Source: Halobellus inordinatus (GTDB lineage Archaea; Halobacteriota; Halobacteria; Halobacteriales; Haloferacaceae). Taken from it: a DNA stretch of 64,000 nt. The notes under the pieces were generated by a model that saw nothing but the letters and a program-made list of their open reading frames with translations, ran no database searches and had not been told where the DNA came from. The stretch covers positions 62,001 through 126,000 of the forward strand of contig NZ_JANHAV010000005.1 in assembly GCF_024464655.1 (NCBI RefSeq). Direction: 5' to 3'. Position 1 is the stretch's first letter; each line of letters starts with the position of its first letter. Positions 11,947 through 59,949 of the stretch are shown one piece after another. A program made the translations under genes and the position numbers.

Positions 11947-11997
11947 ACTGCGGGTCAGATCCGCTGAGACACTCCGCCTCCGAAGGGGATCTGGGCG

Positions 11998-12093
11998 AAC
12001 AGTCGGCACAGCAACTCCCGATGACTCGGGCTGACTCCCGCGTCGACGTGCCGAACGACCGCTGCCCGACGCGGGGTGCGTCCTACGTCACGG
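11998..12093 (-). ncRNA. Candidate structured small RNA, copy 1 (novel family)
   Basis: The intergenic block between ppc and the aldo/keto reductase gene shares a 40-nt identical core (12036-12075) and conserved flanks (11998-12012 and 12081-12093) with 44523-44603. On the minus strand the core folds as a 9-bp stem CCCGCGTCG/CGACGCGGG (12067-12075 with 12037-12045) closing a 21-nt loop. TCGGCAC in the loop (minus strand of 12048-12054) can pair with GTGCCGA (minus strand of 12003-12009), making a pseudoknot. A variable linker here carries an extra hairpin CCCGAGTCATCGGG absent from copy 2. No reading frame is conserved. No match to RNase P, SRP or tRNA was recognised. Confidence 0.55.
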
Positions 12094-12113
12094 CAAGGAT
12101 GGCCCCGGCTTCG

Positions 12114-12121
12114 TATATAAA
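12114..12121 (-). promoter_or_regulatory. TATA box for small RNA copy 1
   Basis: Minus-strand TTTATATA, a near-consensus haloarchaeal TATA element, ends 21 bp upstream of the conserved block. Copy 2 has ATTTATAT at almost the same distance. This predicts a transcription start inside the conserved CCGTGACGTAGGA segment. Confidence 0.6.
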
Positions 12122-12170
12122 CGCTCGTTCGAGAGAGCCGTCGTCCCTGCCCGCCGGGATGATGAGACGG

Positions 12171-33504: not shown

Positions 33505-33590
33505 ATAGGGATTATCGTAACTGTTCGGAGATTCTCGCCGTCCCGTCCGGCGAGAAATCTATGGAGACGTACGATAACCCCTATAGTTCT
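33505..33590. repeat. Palindromic repeat family A, copy 2
   Basis: Inverted repeat with outer arms TATAGGGATTATCGTA and TACGATAACCCCTATA, inner arms GGAGATTCTCGCCG and CGGCGAGAAATCT, and a short loop. It lies between the convergent mqo-like and PurD-like genes and contains the last ten codons (including the stop) of the latter. The closest relatives are copies 3 and 4. Confidence 0.75.
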
Positions 33591-39134: not shown

Positions 39135-39211
39135 AGGGCTTATCGTAACTGTTCGGAGATTCTCGCCGTATGGTCCGGCGAGGAATCTATGGAGACGTAC
39201 GATAATCCGTA
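39135..39211. repeat. Palindromic repeat family A, copy 3
   Basis: Contains TATCGTAACTGTTCGGAG, TTCTCGCCGTATGGTCCGGC and ATCTATGGAGACGTACGATA, nearly identical to copy 2. It begins 2 bp after the uspA stop and lies 47 bp before the end of the convergent TIGR00300 gene. Confidence 0.75.
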
Positions 39212-43500: not shown

Positions 43501-43581
43501 ATACTGTCGGACAGAACGATGTGAAGCGTATCGGCACCCCGTGGGTGCCAACATCATTCACGAACTGCTGTCCGACAGTAT
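43501..43581. repeat. 81-bp palindromic element, family B
   Basis: Perfect 14-bp terminal arms ATACTGTCGGACAG and CTGTCCGACAGTAT flank an inner hairpin GGCACCCCGTGGGTGCC. The right end falls exactly at the stop codon of the MBL hydrolase gene. Unrelated to family A. It resembles a miniature inverted-repeat element or REP-type hairpin; no transposase is present. Confidence 0.65.
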
Positions 43582-44351
43582 CACACCTCGACGCGTAGCC
43601 CGTCGCGAGCGAAGCACACGTCGCCGTCGTACTGTGACTCGATCGAGGCCAGCATCTCCTCGTGGCGACCTTCGGTGTGTGGATAGAGGTGGGTCAGGTA
43701 CACGCGGCCGATGTCGTGGCCCGCCAGCACCTCGCCGAGTTGCGACGGCGTCGGGTGATTCGAGACGTCCACGTCGTCCGGGAACGAACAGTCGTGAGCG
43801 AGAACGGCCGCGCCGTCGGCGAAGTTCGCGAGGCTAGACGCCGCCTCGCCGTCGCCGGAGAAGACGACGTCTCTCGATACGCCGGACGATCCGTCGCTCT
43901 CGCCGTCGCTCGCCGAGAACCGATACGCGAGGCAGTCCAGCGAGTGCACCATCTCCGTCGCCGAGACGTCGAAGCCGGCGACCGAGAACTCGGTCGGCCC
44001 GACCTCGCGGACGCTCAGATCGACCCGATCCTGGAGGTAGTCGTGAACGTCGAGGAGGCCGTCGAGAAGCGACTTCGTCCCCGCGGGACCGACGACTTCG
44101 AGGTACTCCTCTCCCGCCAGCCAGCGCGCCTTCAACAGCGGGAGGAGGTCCGCGACGTGATCGAGGTGGTGGTGGGTGAGAAGCACCGACGAGACGCCTT
44201 CGTACCCTACGTCCGTGCTCGCGAGTCGGTGGAGGACGCCGCTCCCGCAGTCGACGAGCAGCGAGCGGTCGCCTGATTCGAGGAGGAGCCCCGTCTGCAC
44301 CCGGTCGGGGACGGGCATCGCGCTTCCGGTTCCGAGGAAGGTGAGACGCAT
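43581..44351 (-). CDS. Metallo-beta-lactamase-fold hydrolase (RNase Z-like)
   Basis: 256 aa. The metal motif is THHHLDH in SVLLTHHHLDHVADLLPLLK; LTFLGTGSAMPVPDRVQTGLLLE is the family start, and further metal ligands are probably in LAHDCSFPDDV and YLTHLYPH. Similar to RNase Z and related phosphodiesterases but it lacks a clear exosite arm, so the substrate is unclear. Upstream lie the palindromic repeat copy 4 and the second small RNA locus. Confidence 0.8.
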   Translation of the reverse strand: MRLTFLGTGSAMPVPDRVQTGLLLESGDRSLLVDCGSGVLHRLASTDVGYEGVSSVLLTHHHLDHVADLLPLLKARWLAGEEYLEVVGPAGTKSLLDGLLDVHDYLQDRVDLSVREVGPTEFSVAGFDVSATEMVHSLDCLAYRFSASDGESDGSSGVSRDVVFSGDGEAASSLANFADGAAVLAHDCSFPDDVDVSNHPTPSQLGEVLAGHDIGRVYLTHLYPHTEGRHEEMLASIESQYDGDVCFARDGLRVEV

Positions 44352-44427: not shown

Positions 44428-44510
44428 TATAGGGATTATCGTAAGTCTCCATAGATTTCTCGCCGGACGATACGGCGAGAATCTCCGAACAGTTACGATA
44501 ATCCCTAGTA
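44428..44510. repeat. Palindromic repeat family A, copy 4
   Basis: TATAGGGATTATCGTAAGTC ... GACGATACGGCGAGAATC ... GAACAGTTACGATAATCCC: the same element as copies 2 and 3 but reversed in orientation. It lies between the 3' side of the second small RNA (minus strand) and the MBL gene start. Together with the RNA locus it fills the 359-bp gap between the MBL and lhr genes. Confidence 0.75.
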
Positions 44511-44522
44511 GTTCCGGTGGCA

Positions 44523-44603
44523 AACAGTCGGCACAGCGGGTGAGCTCCCGCGTCGACGTGCCGAACGACCGCTGCCCGACGCGGGACAGTTCCTACGTCA
44601 CGG
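44523..44603 (-). ncRNA. Candidate structured small RNA, copy 2 (novel family)
   Basis: Matches copy 1 (11998-12093) over AACAGTCGGCACAGC, the 40-nt identical core (44546-44585) and TCCTACGTCACGG; the linkers between these blocks differ in length and sequence. On the minus strand the 9-bp stem CCCGCGTCG/CGACGCGGG and the pseudoknot pairing TCGGCAC/GTGCCGA (44558-44564 with 44528-44534) are preserved. CAGCGG in the loop could alternatively pair with CCGCTG here. The minus-strand TATA box is at 44625-44632. Intergenic on both sides, with no conserved reading frame. Confidence 0.55.
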
Positions 44604-44624
44604 GGTCGCTGGGCCCGTGATCGG

Positions 44625-44632
44625 ATATAAAT
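44625..44632 (-). promoter_or_regulatory. TATA box for small RNA copy 2
   Basis: Minus-strand ATTTATAT ends 22 bp upstream of the conserved block, essentially the same spacing (21 bp) as the TTTATATA box of copy 1. Confidence 0.6.
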
Positions 44633-44710: not shown

Positions 44711-47569
44711 ATGGTACAGAGCGGGCGTGAACTGCTCCGATCGGCGGCTGCAGACGCGGCGAGCGGCGGCGCAGGGAACGCCGACAGCGGGGCGGGCAAC
44801 GGCGCCGCAGACGACGGAGATCTGGGGAGCGCCGACCCCTACGATTTCGATCCCGATTCCGTCGACATCGCCGACAGCGACGTCCTCGATCGGCTGGAAC
44901 CTGCAGTACGGGAGTGGTGGATCGATCAGTTCGGCCGCTACGTCCAACAGAACGGCGGGTTCTTCACGCCCCCACAGCGCGAGGCGATCCCGCTGGTCGA
45001 CGCGGGGACGAACGCGCTCGTCTGTGCGCCGACCGGATCGGGCAAGACGCTCGCGTCGTTCACGGCGATCCTGAACGATCTGTTCCGACGGGGACGCGAG
45101 CACGAGGACGGCCTCGACAACGCCGTCTACTGCCTCTATATCTCCCCGCTGAAGTCGCTCGCGAACGACATCCACCGCAATCTGACCGTTCCGCTGGAGG
45201 GAATCCGCGATCGGATGGACGAGCGCGGCACCGACGTCGAAGTGCGGCACGCGATCCGTCACGGCGATACCGACTCCGCGGCACGGCAGCGGATGCTGGA
45301 TGAGACCCCACACATCCTCAACACGACGCCGGAGACGCTCGCGATCCTGCTCAACGCGCCGAAGTTCCGCGAGAAGCTCCGATCCGTCGAGTACGTCGTC
45401 GTCGACGAGATTCACAGCCTCGCGGAGAACAAGCGCGGGACGCATCTTTCGGTCTCCTTAGAGCGCCTCGAAAATCTGGTCGATACGTCGCCGACTCGCA
45501 TCGGCTGTTCGGCGACGGTCGAACCGTTGTCGACGATGGCGGAGTTCCTCGTCGGCCGCGACGCCGACGGCGACCCCCGCGAACACGAGATCGTCGACAC
45601 GCGGTTCGTCCGCGACTTCGACCTCCAGTTGGAGTGTCCGACCGACGACCTGATCCACACGCCGCGTTCGGACGTTCAATCGGGGTTCTACGACCGCCTC
45701 GACGAACTGATCCGCTCGCATCGGAACACCCTCGTGTTCACGAACACCCGTTCGGGCGCAGAGCGCGTCCTCGAAAACCTCCGGGAGCGTTACGAGGACT
45801 ACGACGACGCCAACTCGGGCTGTCACCACGGCAGTCTCTCGAAAGAGCGTCGCCAGGCGGTCGAGGAAGGGCTGAAAGACGGCTCACTCGACGTCGTGAC
45901 CACCTCGACGAGCCTCGAACTCGGGATCGATATGCCACACCTCGATTTGGTCGTACAGGTCGGCTCGCCGAAGTCCGTCGCCTCGCTGCTCCAGCGGGTC
46001 GGCCGCGCGGGCCACAGCCTCGGCGAGACTGTCGAGGGGCGCGTGATCGCACTCGACCGCGACGAACTCGTCGAGTGCGCGGTGATGCTGCAGAAGGCCG
46101 AAGACGGATTCGTCGATCGGGTGTTCGTCCCCGAGAACGCCCAAGACGTCGCCGCTCAGCACGTCTACGGGATGGCGATCAACGCCGTCCGGCCCGAGCG
46201 GGAAGTCGTAGACACCCTCCGCAGAGCGTATCCCTATCGAAACTACGCCGAGGCGGACTGGGAGCAGTTGCTTCGCTATCTGACCGCGGGCTACGAGGGA
46301 CTCGAAGACAAGAACGTCTACGCGAAAGTCTGGCGCGACACCAACGACCCGCCGTCGGGTGAACACCACTACGAGGAGTTCGACGTGGGCGAGCGCCTCC
46401 TCGGCAAGCGCGGGCGGATGGCGCGCGTCATCTATATGACCAACATCGGAACGATCCCGGACTCGTTCACCTGCGAAGTCTTGACCAGACAGAGCGAGGA
46501 GTGGGTCGGCACGCTCGACGAGAACTACCTCGATACGTTGGAGAAAGGCGACGTGTTCGTCCTCGGCGGCGATCGGTTCGCCTATCGCTACCGCCACGGC
46601 TCGAAGGTGTACGTCGATCGGACGAACGCACGCGCGACGGTCCCTTCGTGGTTCTCCGAACGCCTCCCGCTCTCGTACGATCTCGGTCGGGAGATCGCCG
46701 CCTTCCAGCGGGACCTGCTCGATCGCCTCTCCGCCGGCGGACGGCCCGCCGCCCGGGAGTGGCTCCGGGACTTCCCGGTCGACGAGAACGCCGTCCGCGC
46801 CATCGCGCGCCTCTTCGACGAGCAGCGCCGCTACGCCGGGGCAGAGAGCGTCGCCACCGACGAGCGTCTCGTCGTCGAGGAGGAACTCGACCGCGAGACC
46901 TACCGGCGGCACTTCTACGTCCACTCGACGTACGGCCGGCGGTTCAACGACGGCCTCTCGCGACTCGTCGCCGCCCAGTGTGCCCGCCGCTCGAACGCGA
47001 ACGTCCAGATCGCCGTCGCCGACAACGGCTTCTCGCTGTCGATGCCGCTGAATCGGAAGGTGGACGTCGGCGCGATCCTGCGCGACCTCGACCCCGAGGC
47101 GGTCCGTTCGGAACTCCGCGCGTCGCTCGACGGCACGGACTTACTGAAGCGCTACTTCCGCATCGACGCCACCCGCGCGCTGATGATTCTGAAGCGCTAC
47201 AAGGGCTACGAGAAGTCCGCGGCCGAACAGCAGGTCTCCGCTGAGATGCTGCTCTCTTTCGCCGACGACCTCGACGACTTCGCGGTGATAGACGAGACGT
47301 ATCGGGAGCTAATCGAGGACAAACTGAACGTCGCCGCGATAGAAGACGTGCTGAAAGCGGTCCGTGCGGGCGACGTCGACGTGGTCACGACGCAGGTCGA
47401 CTCGCCGACTCCTCGCGCGTTCGGTCTCGCGACGCTGCTGGCGAGCGACGTCGTCCTCGCCGAAGACGAGAGTGCGGCGTTACAGGAGTTCCACGCGCGG
47501 GTCCTCGAAGAAATCGACGGGAACGTGGCGCGCGCATCGGACGGTGGAGAGCCCTCCAGCCCCGACTGA
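44711..47569 (+). CDS. lhr: Lhr-type SF2 DNA helicase
   Basis: Large helicase-related protein unwinding DNA 3' to 5', linked to replication-associated repair in archaea. 952 aa. The acidic N-terminal tail (about 45 residues) precedes the helicase core: ALVCAPTGSGKTLASF (Walker A), VVDEIHSLAENKRG (DEIH), GCSATVEPL, TNTRSGAERVLENL, HHGSLSKERRQAVEEGLKDG, TSTSLELGIDMPHLDLVVQVGSPKSVASLLQRVGRAGHSLGE. The C-terminal Lhr-specific region follows. Start ATG at 44711. Confidence 0.92.
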   Translation: MVQSGRELLRSAAADAASGGAGNADSGAGNGAADDGDLGSADPYDFDPDSVDIADSDVLDRLEPAVREWWIDQFGRYVQQNGGFFTPPQREAIPLVDAGTNALVCAPTGSGKTLASFTAILNDLFRRGREHEDGLDNAVYCLYISPLKSLANDIHRNLTVPLEGIRDRMDERGTDVEVRHAIRHGDTDSAARQRMLDETPHILNTTPETLAILLNAPKFREKLRSVEYVVVDEIHSLAENKRGTHLSVSLERLENLVDTSPTRIGCSATVEPLSTMAEFLVGRDADGDPREHEIVDTRFVRDFDLQLECPTDDLIHTPRSDVQSGFYDRLDELIRSHRNTLVFTNTRSGAERVLENLRERYEDYDDANSGCHHGSLSKERRQAVEEGLKDGSLDVVTTSTSLELGIDMPHLDLVVQVGSPKSVASLLQRVGRAGHSLGETVEGRVIALDRDELVECAVMLQKAEDGFVDRVFVPENAQDVAAQHVYGMAINAVRPEREVVDTLRRAYPYRNYAEADWEQLLRYLTAGYEGLEDKNVYAKVWRDTNDPPSGEHHYEEFDVGERLLGKRGRMARVIYMTNIGTIPDSFTCEVLTRQSEEWVGTLDENYLDTLEKGDVFVLGGDRFAYRYRHGSKVYVDRTNARATVPSWFSERLPLSYDLGREIAAFQRDLLDRLSAGGRPAAREWLRDFPVDENAVRAIARLFDEQRRYAGAESVATDERLVVEEELDRETYRRHFYVHSTYGRRFNDGLSRLVAAQCARRSNANVQIAVADNGFSLSMPLNRKVDVGAILRDLDPEAVRSELRASLDGTDLLKRYFRIDATRALMILKRYKGYEKSAAEQQVSAEMLLSFADDLDDFAVIDETYRELIEDKLNVAAIEDVLKAVRAGDVDVVTTQVDSPTPRAFGLATLLASDVVLAEDESAALQEFHARVLEEIDGNVARASDGGEPSSPD

Positions 47570-59832: not shown

Positions 59833-59864
59833 TGTCTACCTCCTGAGAGTGAGAGAAAACGGAG

Positions 59865-59949
59865 TGCAGGGAGCAGGATTTGAACCTGCGGACCCCTATG
59901 GGACAGCGCCCTGAACGCTGCGCCGTTGGCCAGACTTGGCTATCCCTGC
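59865..59949 (-). tRNA. tRNA-Leu (anticodon CAG)
   Basis: On the minus strand GCAGGGA pairs with TCCCTGC, followed by discriminator A. The anticodon stem CAGCG/CGCTG closes loop TTCAGGG, anticodon CAG, reading CUG. The long variable arm (TCCCATAGGGGTC) marks a class II tRNA. Standard archaeal position between rpoD and eL18. No intron, CCA not encoded. Confidence 0.93.

Follow-up and report, generated by a model that had tools for sequence, protein, structure and literature searches.

Within the window, that is, the whole stretch of 64,000 nucleotides of the Halobellus inordinatus contig that was analysed, the gap between a metallo-β-lactamase-fold (MBL) gene (43581-44351, minus strand) and an Lhr-type helicase (lhr) gene (44711-47569, plus strand) contains a compact element, the parts of which are listed in Table 1. 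Read on the minus strand from 44632 to 44519, its 5' part is ATTTATATCCGATCACGGGCCCAGCGACCCC GTGACGTAG GAACTGT CCCGCGTCG GGCAGCGGTCGT and its 3' part TCGGCAC GT CGACGCGGG (loop 3) GTGCCGA CTGTTTGCC. A sequence-only reading had described this place as a second copy of an RNA gene that keeps the core, both flanks, and the TATA box, and the covariance-model match on the minus strand confirmed all of these. Copy 1 is flanked by an aldo/keto reductase-like gene and by a PEP carboxylase-like gene, the latter facing it with its 3' end. What the reading had overlooked was the copy number, the spread through the class, and the invariant start, single codon, and stop with which the predicted transcript begins.

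Table 1. Coordinates in the window of the two RNA elements, their parts, and repeat A
Feature	Coordinates	Strand	Basis or remark
Whole element, copy 2	44519-44632	-	cmsearch 101.4 bits, E 1.6e-21; model positions 1-113
TATA box TTTATAT, positions 2-8	44625-44631	-	family-wide conservation; about -30 to -24 relative to GTG
-10 region motif CGGGCCCA, consensus CGGGRCCA, positions 16-23	44610-44617	-	82 diverse copies
Two-codon ORF GTG-ACG-TAG, predicted transcript 5' end	44593-44601	-	family comparison, 203 assessable copies
Spacer of 7 nt, stop codon to pseudoknot	44586-44592	-	7 nt in 175/203, 5-8 nt in 203/203
P1 5' strand CCCGCGTCG	44577-44585	-	9-bp helix, double changes at 9/9 pairs, 98.9% paired
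Loop 1 with conserved GCGGTYGY	44565-44576	-	G61 98%, C62 100%, G63 96%, G67 100%
P2 5' strand TCGGCAC (pseudoknot)	44558-44564	-	7-bp helix, double changes at 6/7 pairs, 98.2% paired
P1 3' strand CGACGCGGG	44547-44555	-	covariation
Loop 3, variable	44535-44546	-	family lengths 7 to over 60 nt
P2 3' strand GTGCCGA (pseudoknot)	44528-44534	-	covariation
3' tail CTGTTTGCC, family form CTGTTCGCC	44519-44527	-	conserved
Whole element, copy 1	11994-12122	-	cmsearch 99.8 bits, E 3.8e-21
Two-codon ORF GTG-ACG-TAG, copy 1	12083-12091	-	sequence
Repeat A, palindromic, MITE-like, outside the RNA	44428-44507		at least 40 genome copies, 93-100% identity

As had been noted, repeat A (80 nt, with the ends TAGGGATTATCGTAA/TTACGATAATCCCTA) follows copy 2, starting about 11 nt past the tail. 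Further window copies were found at 33506-33585 and 39135-39211, and another lies directly after the RNA copy L020. The possible terminator role suggested for it fails, because it is a dispersed repeat of the mobile type with at least 40 copies, one of which is inserted within loop 3 of another RNA copy (L012, G000:C2:12813-12927). At a gene end (43501-43581) lies another long palindrome, whose 39-nt arms enclose a loop of 3 nt (ACTGTCGGACAG...TTGGCACCC). Because nearly the same sequence is located just downstream of the RNA copy L011, this palindrome is probably another dispersed MITE-like repeat.

Copies in the host genome and across Halobacteria

Used as a blastn query against its own genome, copy 2 returned the self-match and 14 others. 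These matches comprised 14 genuine copies and one false match, the 15th (L023), which was rejected as it is located inside a coding gene. A covariance model built from 13 host-genome copies detected 21 copies at E<1e-9 in the Halobellus host, the E-values of such home-made models being rough. Thus, the locus described as the second is real, but it belongs to a much larger set than two. Most of the related Halobellus genomes carry 18 to 59 copies, and no copy was detected in five genomes that belong to the same GTDB genus and whose intergenic DNA is visibly AT-richer.

With a second covariance model, based on 82 diverse copies, we found at least one copy in 178 of the 292 sampled Halobacteria genomes and in 48 of 76 genera. 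Carriers include, among others, Halobellus, Halomarina, Halorussus, Natronomonas, Salinigranum, Halobaculum, Haloprofundus, Haloglomus, and Halobacterium. They hold 1 to 59 copies per genome, where the per-genome counts of the class-wide survey were taken among the best 12 candidates of each genome and are hence to be read as "at least". Two copies were present in every positive genome of genus g29, which from our inference is probably Haloferax, and about five per genome in genus g41, presumably Haloarcula. Many members of a third genus (g25) gave no detected copy. Because many haloarchaea lack a detected copy, the function should be dispensable in those. A phylum-wide sample gave 18 positives out of 196, all of them haloarchaea and none from outside Halobacteria.

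The family has no counterpart among the collections searched. At gathering score, Rfam 15 matched only tRNAs in the window, and at permissive thresholds it matched nothing inside this element or inside the elements of 20 copy loci, so that identity with an Rfam family was rejected for want of a covariance-model match. A tRNA-Leu (CAG) that ARAGORN places at 59864-59949 was not reported by the Rfam tRNA model at gathering score. We found no description of the family in the open-access literature, to which the search was confined, subscription papers being outside its scope. A viral or phage origin was rejected as well, as there was no match in phage records and the 15 pattern matches in IMG/VR reached at most 24 bits, which is chance level.

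Pseudoknot, promoter, and two-codon frame

The pairing of a loop with a 3' segment, proposed earlier for copies 1 and 2, gained support from covariation across many genera. P1 and P2 were 99.5% paired among the 13 host copies, with 5 doubly changed pairs, while in the 82 diverse copies, 98.6% of cells were paired and double changes occurred at 15 of the 16 pairs. The covariation score of the latter set was 0.634, as compared to 0.176 after shuffling and no more than 0.111 when partners were slid, and a further 81 copies gave 0.564 versus 0.145 when shuffled. Furthermore, 11 P1/P2 pairs ranked at the top of an unsupervised mutual-information scan in which no structure was assumed. Because P2 was absent from the covariance model used for the alignment, its covariation is not a fitting artefact. 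The predicted structure is an H-type pseudoknot, in which two crossing helices (P1 of 9 bp and P2 of 7 bp) both covary. Nested minimum free energy folding alone gave a weak signal (z -1.6), since the program cannot form a pseudoknot. An extension of P2 by positions 61-64/109-112 was rejected; it is compatible with the sequence, yet shows no covariation.

The strand of the RNA is also fixed by these data, because G-U cells are frequent on the minus-strand reading and would become A-C mismatches on the reverse complement. Past the helices, the tail is strongly conserved over the 82 diverse copies (C105 100%, T106 96%, G107 100%, G111 96%, and C112 94%) and is summarised for the family as CUGUUCGCC. 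In contrast to the pseudoknot, the switch suggested for copy 2 did not hold: CAGCGG can indeed pair with CCGCTG there, but this occurs in only 2 of 93 copies, with 1.3 expected by shuffling. Because the competing pair is private to copy 2, the switch is unsupported. In one species (G010), loop 3 is long in most copies, a hint of concerted evolution or of amplification specific to the clade.

The promoter lies at a fixed distance from the start codon. Counted from its first T, the TTTATA box lies upstream of the start-codon position by 30 nt in 182 and by 31 nt in 21 of the 203 assessable copies. The TTTA boxes of 458 protein genes in the DNA analysed peak at -30 from the ATG, and the box-to-GTG distance is that of a leaderless arrangement, as at protein genes. 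The conserved promoter spacing claimed for copies 1 and 2 stands, as the distance to the GTG is 30 nt in both; the difference between 21 and 22 bp arose from the choice of the block start. The DNA between box and block, however, is not unrelated as had been stated, since it contains a motif (GGRCCA, about -15 to -9) conserved over the 82 diverse copies at C16 (89%), G17 (98%), G19 (90%), C21 (96%), C22 (99%), and A23 (100%). With about 200 copies, comparison supports the view that the block forms a unit of transcription, preceded by its promoter at a fixed distance.

At the predicted 5' end, a start, any one codon, and a stop are complete in 196 of the 203 assessable copies. The start position is occupied by GTG in 193 copies and ATG in 5, and the stop position by TGA in 151, TAG in 34, and TAA in 14 (199/203). 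When the second and third bases of the stop were shuffled against each other among the Halobellus copies, 75.6 stops were expected as compared to 90 seen (0/20000 shuffles), a figure that overstates significance and is not a strict probability because the copies are related. The main safeguards against relatedness are the stop exchanges among orthologues and an out-of-sample set. Among 81 previously unused copies, 80 fit the start-stop pattern with 17 forms of the middle codon and no TGG. TAG, TAA, and TGA interchange among orthologous loci, which implies that the position changed independently several times while being constrained to remain a stop.

The minimal frame is also kept where its length differs: L204 reads GTG-GTC-AAC-TGA, with exactly one codon inserted, and L258 reads ATG-TAG. 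By chance, a start-N3-stop arises in the window at 2.5e-4 per position. Based on the shuffles, the unused copies, the orthologue exchanges, the two length variants, and the low random rate, we regard the two-codon frame as being under selection. The models R1 and R2 include the start-stop columns, so their matches are mildly selected for start-stop, although not against TGG in particular. The only TGG among the 203 copies is found in L236 (G015:C1:101764-101903), a natural variant reading GTG-CCC-TGG. Judged from the aligned sequences, the family is a start-stop element in which a start, at most one codon, and a stop are conserved as codons.

Proposed engagement of ribosomes and competing explanations

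We propose that the element encodes an independently transcribed, leaderless, multicopy RNA that would act by engaging ribosomes at the two-codon ORF, and we give this an even chance of being correct. The promoter would start transcription at or beside the GTG, which is why the RNA is predicted to be leaderless. The product would be a non-coding RNA of about 80 nt or longer with its own promoter, in the order 5'-GUG-NNN-stop, 7-nt spacer, H-type pseudoknot, and tail CUGUUCGCC. Because the ribosomes of the host use leaderless ends, a GUG-N3-stop transcript should meet a ribosome; in Haloferax volcanii, 118 natural leaderless transcripts initiate with GUG (PMC4983044). A ribosome recognising this 5' end would put the GUG in the P site. 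From toeprints, the edge of the mRNA entry channel lies at +17, and this is where the base of P1 would sit. The ribosome would form at most one peptide bond, reach the stop, and then terminate or pause against the pseudoknot. We infer that the RNA would thereby serve as a ribosome-bound regulator or sink, the amount of which would be set by gene dose (1 to about 59 copies).

The identity of the start codon does not sit easily with this proposal. For leaderless initiation, GUG is a weak codon (PMC4983044). Its use in 193 of 198 starts is odd for an RNA that captures ribosomes. The near-exclusive GUG points to slow or limited loading, and neither the ribosome-engaging model nor its main rival, described below, explains it well. 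The codon motif could also serve as a recognition sequence, in RNA or DNA, from which TGG is excluded by coincidence, and this would count against reading by ribosomes.

The main rival explanation sees in the element an ordinary pseudoknot RNA that acts in trans or binds a protein, with loop 1 (GCGGUYG) and the tail as its functional parts. The mini-ORF would then be a gatekeeper that only ejects ribosomes before they unwind the pseudoknot, and it would be needed since leaderless 5' ends are loaded by the ribosomes of haloarchaea. This would account for the stop just upstream of P1, for conservation of loop 1 and the tail equal to that of the start-stop, and for the middle codon, which is free (17 forms) and thus makes the peptide unimportant. 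However, losing the start codon would be the simplest way to keep ribosomes off, yet 198 of 203 copies retain it. We consider this explanation unlikely, while taking it seriously.

The genomic setting bears on two further explanations. Copies are intergenic, often at orthologous loci, and their neighbours are unrelated housekeeping genes, including those for NADH dehydrogenase, phosphoglucose isomerase, RNA polymerase Rpb2, glutamate synthase, EPSP synthase, TFB, Elp3, and an Obg-like GTPase. The high and variable copy number would suit a selfish dispersed repeat, that is, a short non-autonomous SINE- or MITE-like element whose promoter and fold serve its own amplification. The state of the MBL-lhr gap points the same way, as in relatives, including sister species, it holds a copy in the same orientation, holds one in the opposite orientation, or is empty; in six Halobellus-group genomes the copy is reversed and carries a long insert in loop 3 (L175, L176, L179, L180, L181, and L184). 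Against this, in at least 17 groups, copies from different species have the same flanking genes, which argues that the RNA loci are stable. In addition, sampled copies within one genome have diverged to a mean identity of 0.71, no terminal repeats were seen in the family alignments, and selection maintains stop codons and structure. The 22 scanned proteins flanking host-genome copies belong to housekeeping or uncharacterised families, with no TnpB or transposase among them. We consider amplification for its own sake improbable.

We consider it very improbable that the element acts in cis, as an antisense promoter and RNA or an insulator affecting a converging gene or a divergent neighbour. Orientations assigned with a simple home-made gene caller for 156 copies were, relative to the RNA, opposite/opposite in 65, same/opposite in 43, same/same in 31, and opposite/same in 17. 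The downstream neighbour is thus convergent in 108 of the 156, often ending 0-60 nt from the element, as a cis-acting element might require, and divergent genes, with a single exception, start no closer than 48 nt. However, the neighbours are unrelated, the opposite/opposite bias is confined to Halobellus (49 versus 13) and absent from other genera (16 versus 18), and the conservation of start and stop would be left unexplained. Last, recognition as DNA or as folded single-stranded DNA, with no purposeful transcription, is hardly credible in view of the promoter at the exact leaderless distance, the strand-specific G-U pairs, and the codon-wise exclusion of TGG at the stop position.

Several known RNA classes were rejected on the same neighbourhoods. 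A riboswitch or cis-regulatory leader does not fit downstream genes that are mostly convergent and neighbours that are unrelated. An IS200/IS605 ωRNA was rejected because the 22 scanned neighbours include neither tnpB nor a transposase. A type III toxin-antitoxin RNA (ToxI-like) was rejected as there are no tandem repeats and no toxin gene among the scanned neighbours, the copies being single and dispersed.

Relation to known systems and significance

The proposed ribosome-engaging RNA has partial parallels elsewhere. A start codon with a stop immediately or one codon later is known from the bar minigenes of phage lambda and from plant AUG-stop uORFs, where, as proposed for this family, the start-stop engages ribosomes without making a real protein. 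Those minigenes and uORFs sit in mRNAs or phage genes, whereas the start-stop of the family would open a structured, multicopy RNA that stands alone and has no reading frame further downstream. Readthrough signals of the MuLV gag-pol type likewise consist of a stop codon, a spacer of about 7-8 nt, and an H-type pseudoknot. In contrast to these, the family has a single sense codon before the stop and no frame conserved past it, as follows from the freely varying length of loop 3. To our knowledge, a fixed leaderless start-X-stop before a pseudoknot has not been described for any stand-alone RNA.

Among haloarchaeal RNAs, the text of a report on H. volcanii (PMC12482152) describes sRNAs that are occupied by ribosomes yet lack coding potential, to which the family may be linked by analogy; it mentions neither a pseudoknot nor a start-stop. 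Archaeal IS200/IS605 ωRNAs (PMC12558985) are similarly pseudoknotted, multicopy, and haloarchaeal, but the family differs in having its own promoter, another anatomy, and no tnpB or transposase among the scanned neighbours. On comparative grounds, the RNA class and its anatomy appear to be new, and its biochemical function is put forward as a proposal. Tentatively, and with rather less than even confidence, we suggest that the class may consist of dead-end leaderless messages that capture or park ribosomes or initiation/termination factors, with gene dose tuning translation.

Most of the sampled haloarchaeal genera thus carry a family of structured RNA genes that appears to have been missed by Rfam and the open-access literature searched. 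With it, archaeal leaderless initiation, termination, and ribosome regulation would become testable with single-gene reagents, and the genera with only 2-5 copies, probably Haloferax and Haloarcula, would suit such tests.
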